From NCBI RefSeq assembly GCF_000403645.1, contig NC_021313.1, positions 558,001 to 622,000 on the forward strand: DNA of 64,000 nt. The letters run 5' to 3'. Made by a program: the position numbers and the translations under genes. Shown one piece after another: positions 56,656 through 60,530 of this stretch. The notes under the pieces were generated by a model. It saw nothing but the letters and a program-made list of their open reading frames with translations, was not told the origin of the DNA and made no database searches. Each line of letters opens with the position of its first letter. The first letter of the stretch is position 1. Source of the stretch: Salinarchaeum sp. Harcht-Bsk1. Lineage in GTDB: Archaea; Halobacteriota; Halobacteria; Halobacteriales; Salinarchaeaceae.

Positions 56656-57231
56656 TCACGTCGCCGAACCGTCCGGCTCCGTCCGCTCGATCGCTCCGAC
56701 AGAGCACGTCCGCGGATCGCCGGAGCGCGTCAGGAAGCCCACCAGGAGTACGATACCGCCGACGCGCAACAGCGTACCGTCGTAGGGCAGTGCAGCCATC
56801 GCACCGACGAACCCGAGCGCACCGAGCACGCCCGCGCCACAGCTCGCACACCCGGCTGCGAGCACGCCGGGCAGGATGCCCGCGACGCCCGTCGCGCCCG
56901 AGCGCCGTCGGCGCCGGAGGAGCGCGGCGGCATTCGTCACTGCGACGCCGGTGAGCAGTGCGTACAGGACGACGAGGGAGAGGCCGAGCCAGCCACTCGT
57001 GAGGTACACCTCTCGGGTGAGCACCGAAACGCCGTAGGTGACATCCGTGAGGTCCCGCTCTAAGAACTGGCGGGTGAACTGCGGGTAGGTGCTCAGCACG
57101 AGGAGCACGTACGTCCCGATCGTCACGACCCCCGCACCGAGGAGGCGGGCGTCGGAGGTGAGCGGATAGACGAGCGCGTCGCGAAGGGCGACCGCTACAC
57201 CGTGGATCCGGCGTCGATCGACCCTGGTCAC
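56656..57231 (-). CDS. membrane protein with CxxC inside a helix, coupled to DsbA-like gene
   Basis: A 191-residue protein with about four helices (30-48, 80-104, 116-148, 154-168). The third contains AAGCASCGAG with Cys128 and Cys131; a third cysteine is Cys176 after the last helix. An intramembrane CxxC is seen in thiol-redox carriers and in a family of uncharacterised proteins linked to thioredoxin-like partners. GTG at 57231 overlaps the preceding stop by 4 bp (GTGA), so it is made with the DsbA-like protein. It may pass electrons or oxidise its partner, like DsbB; this is inference. Confidence 0.7.
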   Translation of the reverse strand: MTRVDRRRIHGVAVALRDALVYPLTSDARLLGAGVVTIGTYVLLVLSTYPQFTRQFLERDLTDVTYGVSVLTREVYLTSGWLGLSLVVLYALLTGVAVTNAAALLRRRRRSGATGVAGILPGVLAAGCASCGAGVLGALGFVGAMAALPYDGTLLRVGGIVLLVGFLTRSGDPRTCSVGAIERTEPDGSAT

Positions 57232-57965
57232 GTCGCCAACACCTGGTCGATCGCCGACGCGAAGTTCTCGTAGGGGTGGGCGCCGACGAGGCGCCCAGCC
57301 CGGTCGTTCTCACGGTTGTAGACGACGAACGCGGGCGTGCCGCGGATCCCGGCCGACTGGGCCGCGGATACGTCTGCGTCGAGGCGGTCGCGAATCGCGT
57401 CGCTGCGGGTCTCCCTGCAGGACTCGACCGCCGATCGAGAGACGCCCTCGACCCGTTCGGTTACCTCGGCGAACGTCGCGTCGTCGGCCCAGTCCTCCCC
57501 GGACGATCGCTGGACGTCGAACACCTCGCCGTGCCAGTTCCAGTACGCCATCGGATCGTCGGCGCCGACCTGCTCCCAGACGCAGCGGTCCCAGATCGCG
57601 GCGGGCATCGAGTACTCGCCGATGTTCGGAAACAGGAGGAAGGGGATGCGCACCTGGCCGGCGTCGACGTAGTTTCGCCCGATCTTCGCGAGCGTGTTGG
57701 CTTCGAAGCGCGCACAGAACGGACAGAGGTAGTCGGTCCAGTAGTAGAGGTCGACCGGCGCAGCGGCGTCGCCAACGACCGGACGCCCCGACAGTTCGAT
57801 GCCCAGACCACTGGTACCGGAGCCCTCGTGAATCGTCGCAGGTTCGTAGGCCGAGTCCGTCGAGGCCGAGCGCGTCGCGAGGTACGCGACGCCGGCGCCG
57901 AACCCGATCGTCGCACCGCCCGCGAGGAGCGCCCGACGCCGGGTGATCGTGTCTTCGTCGTCCAT
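57228..57965 (-). CDS. exported DsbA-like thiol-disulfide protein
   Basis: A 245-residue protein with a twin-arginine-like start (TRRRALLAGGATIGFGAG, residues 8-25), so folded export by the Tat pathway is likely, as for many haloarchaeal secreted proteins. The thioredoxin-fold domain has LCPFCARFEANTL with Cys81 and Cys84. A helical insert follows, and GIRGTPAFVVYNRE gives the cis-Pro loop. It would oxidise or isomerise disulfides outside the membrane. Overlaps the CxxC membrane protein gene by 4 bp. Start ATG 57965. Confidence 0.88.
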   Translation of the reverse strand: MDDEDTITRRRALLAGGATIGFGAGVAYLATRSASTDSAYEPATIHEGSGTSGLGIELSGRPVVGDAAAPVDLYYWTDYLCPFCARFEANTLAKIGRNYVDAGQVRIPFLLFPNIGEYSMPAAIWDRCVWEQVGADDPMAYWNWHGEVFDVQRSSGEDWADDATFAEVTERVEGVSRSAVESCRETRSDAIRDRLDADVSAAQSAGIRGTPAFVVYNRENDRAGRLVGAHPYENFASAIDQVLAT

Positions 57966-58176
57966 CGACGTACAAGACTATCGGCATCCGTGCCAAGGGC
58001 CTTTCGTCCGTCGGGGACGGCGGACCGGACGCGAGCAGCGAGACTCCGAGACGCGTCGCTCCGAACCGTGGCGGACGGTGCCCCAGACCGGGGCACCGAG
58101 GCGCTTCCGACGGCGACCGCCGGGAAGCGAGAGGGCGCAGCAGGAATCACACTGCAGGCGCCGACGATCGGCGACC

Positions 58177-58536
58177 TCAGTTCGCGTAGCGGTCGATCAG
58201 CGACGCGAGGCGATCCTTGGACTGGACGCCGACGATCTCCTCGACCTGTTCGCCGCCGGCGAACAGCACCAGCGTCGGGACGCCACGGACGCCGTAGGCA
58301 GCAGCGAGTGGCTGGTTCGCGTCGACGTCGACCTTGGCGACCGTGGCCTCGGTCTCTGCAGCCAGTTCCTCGACGACGGGCGCGATCATCTGGCAGGGGC
58401 CACACCAGTCGGCGTAGAAGTCCGCCAGCACGACGCCTCCGTCGCCGACCAGTTCTTCGAGGTCGCTCTGGCCGTTCACGGGCACCGGCGTGTCGTTCGT
58501 CTCCGCGCTCTGATTCGTAGCAGTATCGGTCGTCAT
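58177..58536 (-). CDS. trxA: thioredoxin
   Basis: A 119-residue cytosolic thioredoxin. ADFYADWCGPCQMIAPVVEEL carries the redox pair Cys45 and Cys48; VAKVDVDANQPLAAAYGVRGVPTLVLF includes the cis-Pro loop. An N-terminal acidic extension of about 20 residues precedes the fold. Three starts are possible (GTG 58542, GTG 58539, ATG 58536); I use the ATG. It is 211 bp upstream of the DsbA-like gene on the same strand, separate from it. Confidence 0.94.
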   Translation of the reverse strand: MTTDTATNQSAETNDTPVPVNGQSDLEELVGDGGVVLADFYADWCGPCQMIAPVVEELAAETEATVAKVDVDANQPLAAAYGVRGVPTLVLFAGGEQVEEIVGVQSKDRLASLIDRYAN

Positions 58537-58769: not shown

Positions 58770-59159
58770 TTAGCTCTGGATGGACGCGGTCGCCTCTGTC
58801 TCGTCGTACTTCGACTCGAACTCCTGGATGAGCTGGCCCATCTTGGCGTACCAGTCGTTGAGCATCCGCTGCATGTCGTCGGCGATCTTCTGTGGATCCG
58901 TCGGCGAGTAGACGTGATAGTAGCCGCCCTGTTCGTAGTTGACCTGTTCCTTCTGGATGAATCCGGTCTGCAGAAGACGCTGGACGGCGCGGTAGGCGGT
59001 CGATCGCTCGCGGTCCACGCCCTCGGCGATCTCGTCGACCGTGAGGGGGTCGTCGGCCGCGACGAGCGCCTGGAAACAGTCCTTGTCGAGCTGCTTCAGC
59101 CCGTGGAAACACTCCAGGAGCCCCTCACACTCCATGTCCTGCTGGAGTTGTTCGGACAT
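58770..59159 (-). CDS. TrmB-like winged-helix regulator
   Basis: A 129-residue regulator with Cys-containing start (MECEGLLECFHGLKQLDKDC). The winged helix lies at about 15-75: DCFQALVAADDPLTVDEIAE, then DRERSTAYRAVQRLLQTGF as recognition helix, then the wing QKEQVNYEQGGYYHVYSP. A C-terminal helix (QRMLNDWYAKMGQLIQEFESKY) probably dimerises. Cys8, Cys14 and Cys26 might sense thiols or metal. An ATG four codons further upstream (59171) is possible. It lies in front of the TauE/SafE gene on the same strand in many genomes as I recall, here 331 bp downstream. Confidence 0.8.
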   Translation of the reverse strand: MSEQLQQDMECEGLLECFHGLKQLDKDCFQALVAADDPLTVDEIAEGVDRERSTAYRAVQRLLQTGFIQKEQVNYEQGGYYHVYSPTDPQKIADDMQRMLNDWYAKMGQLIQEFESKYDETEATASIQS

Positions 59160-59489
59160 CGAATCTGGCATCTGTATCGAACGAACGTACCCACTGTGGC
59201 GGCAAAAGACTTGTGTATGGTTCCTACAATTCTGGAGCAGCGAACCCGGGCGGAGAACGCGACTGGTTCTCGTCGCCTCCCGGTTCGTCGAGCAGGAGAC
59301 GTCGGCCGCTGAGTAGCCACTATTGCCTATCGAGTTTGCACGTCGCGAATCGGCGCCCGGAGACCGCCTCCGAGCGCCCGGCAAAAACGAGGTCGAAACG
59401 ACAGCGGGGGCGTCGCCGGCAGCGAGGGGTTCGACGGCGGTGAGCCCCCCGGTGGGCGCGAGCCCTTCGACGCCGGCGCTCGTCCGTGC
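59160..59489. other. 330-bp intergenic region
   Basis: Separates the TrmB-like regulator from the TauE/SafE gene. It must hold the regulator's promoter (a CAAGTCTTTTGCC segment on the minus strand near 59205). Short G+C-rich inverted repeats (GAGCCCCCCGGTGGGCGCGA near 59440) could end the TauE/SafE transcript. No coding frame is convincing. Confidence 0.5.
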
Positions 59490-60530
59490 TCAGTCCGCGA
59501 TGGTCGAGCCGGAGCGGTTGGATTCCCGCAGCGCACTCAGGCTGCTCTGCACGACTGCACCGCTGACCAGCAGCGCGGAGCCGAGGATCAGCACCATGCT
59601 GACGATGCTCAGCTCCTCGATCCCGGTCGCGTTGCCGATCTGTCGGACTGCGACCGCGACCGCGCCGCCCAGCAGCATCACGCCGAAGTACACCTTGATC
59701 TCGTCCTCGTCGACGATGCTGGTGGCCGCGGAACCGACGCGGGCACCCAGGGCGCTCCCAGCCAGCAGCGGAACGACGATGCCGAGGTTGACGCCGCCGT
59801 CCATCGCGTAGAGGAAGCTCCCGATCCCGCCCGAGAAGACGATCTCGAACAGGTCCGTCCCGACGGCGATCGGGACCGGCACGCCGATCAGGTAGAACAG
59901 CGCGGGCATGCGGATGAATCCGCCGCCGACGCCGAGCAGCCCGGACAGCAGGCCGGTCGCGAATGCGACGGCGAGGATCATCCACAGCGAGACGCTGACG
60001 CCGCCTCGCAGGTCGATCATCGGCGGGAGGTGATACGACTGAATTTTCTTGGCGATGTCGGGGATGTCGTCGGAGAGGTCCTCGTCGGGGTCGACGTCCT
60101 CCACGTCGTGGTCGACGCCACCGCCGCCGTCACCCTTGATCGCCTCATAGGTGACGAACGCACCGATGCCACCCAGCAGGACGACGTAAGTGACGCTGAT
60201 GACGCTCCCGGCCAGGCCGAGTTCCTGGAGGTGGAGCACGATTTCCTTGCCGACCTCGATGCCGGCAGTCGTCCCAGCGATCATCAACACCCCGAGCTTG
60301 TAGTCGACCTGCCCGAGGTCGCGGTGTTTCAACGTCGCGATAACCGAGGTCCCGAAGACGAACGCGAGACCGCTCCCGACGGCGACGCTGGACTCGTAGC
60401 CCATGACCAGCAGTGCCGGCGTCACCAGGAAGGAACCGCCCATCCCGAAGAAGCCGAAGAGGATGCCGATCAGGAGGCCGAAGCCGACGAACAGGGCCAG
60501 CATCGCCACGCTCATTCCAAACAATGCCAT
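59490..60530 (-). CDS. TauE/SafE family sulfite or sulfur-compound exporter
   Basis: A 346-residue protein with about eight to nine helices in two halves. GFGLLIGILFGFFGMGGSFLVTPALLVMGYES is the first half signature and FATGLLSGLLGVGGGFIRMPALFYLIGVP the second: each is the family's GxGGGxxxxP pattern. An acidic cytosolic loop of about 40 residues (VDHDVEDVDPDEDLSDD) divides the halves. The family exports sulfite, sulfoacetate or similar anions, or takes them up. A 48-residue membrane protein gene starts the unit 4 bp ahead. ATG 60530. Confidence 0.88.
   Translation of the reverse strand: MALFGMSVAMLALFVGFGLLIGILFGFFGMGGSFLVTPALLVMGYESSVAVGSGLAFVFGTSVIATLKHRDLGQVDYKLGVLMIAGTTAGIEVGKEIVLHLQELGLAGSVISVTYVVLLGGIGAFVTYEAIKGDGGGGVDHDVEDVDPDEDLSDDIPDIAKKIQSYHLPPMIDLRGGVSVSLWMILAVAFATGLLSGLLGVGGGFIRMPALFYLIGVPVPIAVGTDLFEIVFSGGIGSFLYAMDGGVNLGIVVPLLAGSALGARVGSAATSIVDEDEIKVYFGVMLLGGAVAVAVRQIGNATGIEELSIVSMVLILGSALLVSGAVVQSSLSALRESNRSGSTIAD

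Follow-up and report, generated by a model that had tools for sequence, protein, structure and literature searches.

A membrane protein with three near-invariant cysteines is encoded beside an exported DsbA-like protein in two clades of halophilic archaea, and, judging from sequence, we put at about even odds (roughly 0.5) the reading that the membrane protein is the dedicated partner of the DsbA-like protein in a transmembrane thiol relay. The pair was found in a window of 64,000 nucleotides, the whole stretch of DNA that was analysed, which spans positions 558001-622000 of the 3.26-Mb genome of Salinarchaeum sp. Harcht-Bsk1; coordinates below are those of the window.

Gene order and family assignment

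Three genes follow one another on the minus strand: a thioredoxin, then the DsbA-like exported protein, then the membrane protein. The cytosolic thioredoxin, which carries a WCGPC motif, occupies 58177-58536 (reading frame 58542/58536-58177, with 58536 the first ATG) and lies 211 bp upstream of the DsbA-like gene (57228-57965, 245 aa), whose CPFC active site, residues 81-84, is at 57714-57725. The membrane protein (56656-57231, 191 aa) belongs to a family without a name and begins at a GTG that overlaps the stop of the DsbA-like gene by 4 bp (GTGA, 57231-57228). Its CASC motif, residues 128-131 with C128 and C131, is encoded at 56839-56850, and a further cysteine, C176, at 56704-56706. Two more genes on the same strand, a TrmB-type winged-helix regulator with an N-terminal CEGLLEC (58770-59162) and a TauE/SafE-type transporter (59490-60530), are co-directional neighbours whose belonging to the locus is uncertain. 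In the regulator family the first cysteine of CEGLLEC is present in 20/20 and the second in 18/20 aligned sequences, window included; a thiol- or sulfur-sensing role could follow from this motif.

Two of the three proteins are readily assigned. The DsbA-like protein scores above the curated cut-offs of Pfam Thioredoxin_4 (PF13462, 67.7 bits against 23.2) and DSBA (PF01323, 45.7 bits against 25.6) and has the CPFC of the DsbA-like proteins. The upstream gene scores 95.9 bits against the Pfam thioredoxin cut-off of 23.5 and 106.4 against 96.8 for TIGR01068. A preliminary description made from the DNA letters was thus right about the CPFC protein, the 4-bp overlap and the thioredoxin just upstream. 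The nearest solved relative of the DsbA-like protein is BdbD (3eu3, E 2e-16), an oxidase; other relatives include chains named DsbA and chains labelled 'Copper resistance protein' and 'Metal resistance protein', which we take to be ScsC. As for the twin-arginine start that had been proposed, 105 of 107 DsbA-like partners carry RR among their first 60 residues when the longest open frame is taken; the TAT-like reading of the start is based on the twin arginines only.

The membrane protein matched no Pfam or NCBIfam family above threshold, the best Pfam row being a sub-threshold T2SSK (E 0.037). Searching with 77 family members found no covering model in either library (one weak, apparently unrelated match in each), and no solved relative of the family was found by sequence. 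None of the 77 members matches DsbB (PF02600), VKOR (PF07884), CcdA/DsbD_TM (PF02683) or MerT (PF02411) at E 0.01. The cysteines likewise differ from those of the known families: DsbB has two outside cysteine pairs, against one pair and one predicted cytosolic cysteine here; CcdA has two single cysteines in pseudo-symmetric helices, against one CxxC and C176; and MerT has a vicinal CC (5/5 rows), against CxxC in 41/41 rows. By these models and cysteine layouts the membrane protein falls outside the DsbB and CcdA families, as had been suspected.

Conservation of the membrane cysteines

A whole-protein search found relatives in 45 of 98 genomes, the Harcht-Bsk1 genome included, and a profile search in 49 of the 98; in a phylum sample the profile matched at least 31 of 392 genomes, with part of the candidates scored. 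The best match among named genomes is in Salinarchaeum laminariae. C128, C131 and C176 are invariant in 41/41 aligned proteins, comprising the window's own and 40 fetched after the whole-protein search. This set was gathered without any cysteine pattern, from hand-chosen places (29 strong and 11 weaker matches, fragments left out). The preliminary description had staked its reading on these cysteines being conserved in orthologues, and they are.

A larger set retained 80 loci from 90 relatives. Because CxxC formed part of its search pattern, the CxxC count there carries no weight; C176, which the pattern left out, is present in 76 of 77 rows (named genomes), the sole exception terminating early. 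The 77-row alignment omits L076, a duplicate, and L091, which is short. Halophile members fall into two clades, the window's clade at 46-80% identity to the window protein and a sister clade at 26-33% in the sampled rows and as low as 19% in the larger set; these labels (87 and 34 loci) were given by motif, not by tree, and a few odd members are possibly misplaced. S. laminariae also encodes a tandem paralogue of the membrane protein (L070:2198-2776) that lacks both the CxxC and the C-terminal cysteine and adjoins an ABC transporter pair.

Predicted topology

Mean K+R/D+E counts for the successive loop segments, whose borders were set by hand from model and hydrophobicity, are 3.47/2.06, 1.08/3.04, 1.88/0.87, 0/0.84 and 2.21/1.92 (77 rows), which fits a predicted topology with the N terminus inside, four TM helices and the C terminus inside. 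AlphaFold models of one member per clade have mean pLDDT 77.2 and 77.5. Helices in the model of the window protein span residues 6-24, 27-48, 50-59, 61-110, 116-125, 133-146 and 152-170. The GCASCG sequence sits in a helix break, in the third predicted TM helix, and in the sister-clade model a helix stops at residue 143, within the C141-C144 pair; the CxxC region is of low confidence in both models (pLDDT about 50-68 per block of ten). C176 follows six residues beyond the last predicted helix (152-170). From the loop charges together with the models, CASC is predicted to lie mid-membrane and C176 on the cytosolic face after TM4, in keeping with the earlier placement of CASC in a helix and of a further cysteine by the last helix. 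Foldseek searches of the PDB with the two models gave no match at E 0.001, where a missing row says little, and the best VIA-align Z for the first model was 6.6.

Pairing with the DsbA-like gene

We searched 138 stretches of DNA. One (L127) had no match and two (L132 and L160) scored below 100 bits and were left out, and removing rows identical over the last 140 residues reduced the remaining 135 to 121 loci. A DsbA-like gene lies within 500 bp of the membrane gene in 107 of these 121 non-identical loci, which bears out the gene-pair conservation that the preliminary description had proposed to check. In 84 of the 121 it is directly upstream on the same strand, either overlapping or no more than 20 bp away, and 41 of those 84 have an overlap of exactly 4 bp. 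The DsbA-like gene is more than 500 bp off in 10/121 loci, and none was found within the fetched stretch in 4/121; at some loci the two genes are divergent or apart. All 107 DsbA-like partners contain a CxxC somewhere, and the pairing is present in both halophile clades. The Harcht-Bsk1 genome has three Thioredoxin_4 genes, two of which adjoin its two membrane-family genes; by simple arithmetic, the chance that a random gene would have such a neighbour should be well under 1%. The L160 locus, from outside the haloarchaeal order, showed no DsbA-like gene by eye among the ORFs listed for 5.8 kb of a 9.2-kb contig. Plasmid location is frequent, with 25 plasmid records.

Thioredoxin and other neighbours

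The preliminary description had placed the thioredoxin in the relay as its third member. Within the fetched stretches, 33/87 window-clade loci and 1/34 sister-clade loci contain a WC[GPA]xC motif, and the thioredoxin cluster itself, named by eye, is found at 21/87 window-clade loci. These counts rule out a fixed triad of thioredoxin, DsbA-like protein and membrane protein; thioredoxin is not a constant partner.

Other neighbours were counted over the 87 window-clade loci, where the figures are rough (a home-made gene caller, single-linkage clusters, antisense frames admitted and stretches of unequal length). Winged-helix regulators occur at 61 loci, M20 peptidases at 24, rhodanese-MBL proteins and DUF302 at 13 each and TusA at 8. 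TauE neighbours occur at 11 loci, with a second cluster of 10 that was named by likeness to the TauE of the window. A small DUF7521 protein (L058:2533-2799) is a neighbour at 40/87 loci. An 88-aa membrane protein (L088:468-734; 29/87 loci) carries CC in helix 1 and CSC close to the C terminus; it has no Pfam family, and its layout resembles that of MerF. A 310-aa CcdA-like protein (L093:5541-6473), named by eye and with no Pfam family at E 0.01, occurs at 19/87 loci; its membrane family also includes L197:1297-2007, and a relative stands in the Harcht-Bsk1 genome behind SCO-like and TlpA-like genes.

Neighbours at some loci include TusA, DsrE, MBL-fold and TauE proteins, and at some loci SCO, heavy-metal P-type ATPases and multicopper oxidases. 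In all six-frame ORFs of the 121 loci a MerA-type motif occurred at 3, an HMA motif at 1 and a P-type ATPase motif at 2. On the MerA and HMA counts we rejected a classical mercury operon. To us the neighbourhood looks like one of sulfur and thiol stress, in which metal genes turn up now and then.

A second small membrane family and its link to MerT

Near the pair, a second small membrane gene is found at 54 of 87 window-clade loci, in 34 of the 54 directly downstream, and at 0/34 sister-clade loci. It is absent from the window, and none was found in the rest of the genome among the 36 of 83 candidates scored. Its products have GCPxC in 50/54 and C..C near the end in 53/54. The profile of this second family matches the window family with Prob 94 and E 1.3e-7 (score 48; none of the 60 window-shuffled controls exceeded 25) and MerT, an alignment of 5 rows, with Prob 92 and E 6.1e-7 (score 44; none of the 60 window-shuffled controls exceeded 26). 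Direct comparison of the window family with MerT was not significant (Prob 0.4; score 15, the median of the shuffles being 14.5); the similarity to MerT is significant only through the second family. Pfam MerT gave sub-threshold matches to 3 of 10 scanned small membrane proteins, all three bacterial, with a best E of 9e-4. The suggestion of a new kind of carrier holds as far as named Pfam and NCBIfam models go, but the family is not entirely isolated, since profiles connect it with the second membrane family and, by way of that, with MerT.

The second family is also found in bacteria. In Azospirillum a DsbD-domain gene is followed by DsbA and then by the linked membrane gene, with a 4-bp overlap; Pseudonocardia has overlapping DsbA, CcdA and linked membrane genes; Arthrobacter has a Trx-domain gene, CcdA and the linked membrane gene; Mycolicibacterium has the linked membrane gene followed by TlpA; and in Rhodococcus sp. 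DN22 the linked membrane gene is divergent from a Trx-domain-CcdA pair. Of 13 hand-picked bacterial loci, 5 have a Trx-fold gene adjoining or in the same operon and 8 have no adjoining Trx-fold gene; one of the 8 is unannotated, and one has a DsbA gene about 3 kb away.

DsbB, VKOR and CcdA in the genomes

The Harcht-Bsk1 genome has no match to the VKOR, DsbB or DsbD_TM models. An apparent absence of CcdA in the Pfam search was dropped as a conclusion, as a divergent CcdA-like gene follows SCO-like and TlpA-like genes (both named by eye) in an operon at about 1.87 Mb.

Co-occurrence was scored in one sample of 98 genomes, with several tests, no tree and carrier lists compiled by hand. DsbB is present in 3/27 carriers of the window's clade and 33/71 other genomes; under permutation within taxonomic families the expected count is 7.4 (P 0.0025). 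VKOR is not avoided by this clade (9/27 carriers, 15/71 others). Carriers of the sister clade do not avoid DsbB (15/30, against 21/68 others), are weakly short of VKOR (3/30, against 21/68; P 0.04) and are enriched in CcdA (10/30, against 6/68; P 0.006). Neither clade, nor VKOR, nor DsbB was found in 17 of the 79 more complete genomes, and such a pathway is therefore not universally needed. Some VKOR matches lie in open frames of about 460-520 aa (G031, G055, G083, G091, G046, G061, G069 and G056), which are possibly fusions or over-long open frames.

Discussion

In the relay that we favour, the outside CPFC of the DsbA-like protein would swap disulfides with C128/C131, which would exchange with C176, and C176 would in turn exchange with a cytosolic thiol carrier, for example the thioredoxin encoded next door. 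We lean slightly towards reducing power moving outwards, because some relatives adjoin CcdA, TlpA or Trx genes, and give almost equal odds to a relay that oxidises the DsbA-like protein, in view of the BdbD-like partner and the avoidance of DsbB by the window's clade. The genome's own CcdA-like gene in the SCO-TlpA operon means that the cell would have a reducing relay in any case, and at loci with CcdA next door a second one looks redundant. Also to be set against the relay are the 14/121 loci without a DsbA-like gene within 500 bp, the 8/13 bacterial loci without a Trx-fold neighbour and the S. laminariae tandem paralogue without the cysteines. A more specific version of the relay is tentative, and in our judgement somewhat more probably wrong than right: that it adds a third kind to DsbB/VKOR and CcdA/DsbD, in the form of a four-helix protein with a CxxC in a broken helix and a cytosolic cysteine, descended from MerT stock and dedicated in haloarchaea to an exported DsbA-like partner.

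Because of the link to MerT through the second family, conduction of a metal or of sulfur has to be considered as well. It is possible, if on the whole unlikely, that the membrane protein is a MerT-like conduit, with copper, mercury, another soft metal or sulfane sulfur as the thiophilic cargo that moves along its cysteines. The DsbA-like protein would then resemble the copper-linked ScsC and either deliver this cargo or maintain the cysteines in their reduced state. Such a role would fit the match of the linked family to MerT (Prob 92, E 6.1e-7, score 44 against at most 26) and the sub-threshold Pfam rows (3/10), the shared layout of intramembrane cysteines, next helix and then a cysteine, and neighbours such as SCO, P-type ATPase, multicopper oxidase, TusA, DsrE, MBL-fold and TauE proteins. 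It would also suit the solved relatives named for copper and metal resistance, and Trx-fold partners of the ScsC type can serve copper tolerance (PMC8900818, PMC5524982). Pulling the other way, the window family itself does not match MerT significantly (Prob 0.4), it has CxxC rather than CC, metal motifs are scarce at its loci (MerA 3/121, HMA 1/121, P-type ATPase 2/121), and its usual neighbour is a Trx-fold protein rather than MerP.

We regard as improbable a simple stand-in for DsbB or VKOR, in which the membrane CxxC would oxidise the DsbA-like protein and pass electrons to quinone: the protein has no second outside cysteine pair, its third cysteine is predicted to be cytosolic, and it has no family match. 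The nearness of the partner to BdbD, the lack of DsbB and VKOR matches in the genome, and the genome counts (the window's clade anti-correlating with DsbB within families, the sister clade weakly short of VKOR) speak for it, but VKOR is not rarer among carriers of the window's clade, nor is DsbB among those of the sister clade. Still less credible, and in our view very improbable, is that the two genes merely share a sulfur- or metal-stress cassette, the membrane protein having a role unrelated to the DsbA-like protein. Stress-type neighbours, frequent plasmid location (25 records) and loci where the genes are divergent or apart would agree with this, but a pairing that persists in both clades, which share about 30% identity, and in many loci comes with overlapping translation, and three near-invariant cysteines argue against it.

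No paper on this gene pair was found among open-licence PMC titles, abstract beginnings and passages of PMC8261052, and titles and abstract beginnings in open-licence PMC gave no relevant paper for haloarchaea with DsbA or DsbB. The pair, recurring widely in related archaea, points to an undescribed transmembrane thiol route, and its conserved DsbA-like and membrane-cysteine components make it a small and concrete candidate, accessible to experiment, for the route by which thiol chemistry crosses the haloarchaeal membrane. Through the profile link between this family, its bacterial relatives and MerT, a single small membrane fold would connect the transport of metals with the relay of thiols; if a relay of MerT stock is real, importing metals and relaying disulfides would go back to the same ancestral membrane-cysteine device.

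Among known systems, the CcdA/DsbD domain (PF02683), of which SoxV-SoxW is a functional example, likewise has membrane-embedded cysteines thought to supply an exported Trx-fold partner with reducing power drawn from thioredoxin; the window protein differs in having four predicted helices, one CxxC and a cytosolic cysteine, and no two-fold repeat that we could see. In DsbA-DsbB, BdbD-BdbC and DsbA-VKOR, too, a membrane protein is dedicated to an exported DsbA-like protein, whereas the window membrane protein has no DsbB or VKOR match and, by predicted topology, no outside pair. ScsB-ScsC of copper tolerance combines a DsbA-like exported protein with a membrane thiol partner, and the Azospirillum locus has a DsbD-domain gene, DsbA and the linked membrane gene in a row; the window membrane protein is not of the DsbD kind, and it is not known to have a metal phenotype. 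MerT (PF02411) shares the order of cysteines inside a TM helix, a next TM helix and then a cysteine near the cytosolic side, but it has CC and a MerP partner, whereas the window family has CxxC, a DsbA-like partner and a longer N-terminal part with further helices.
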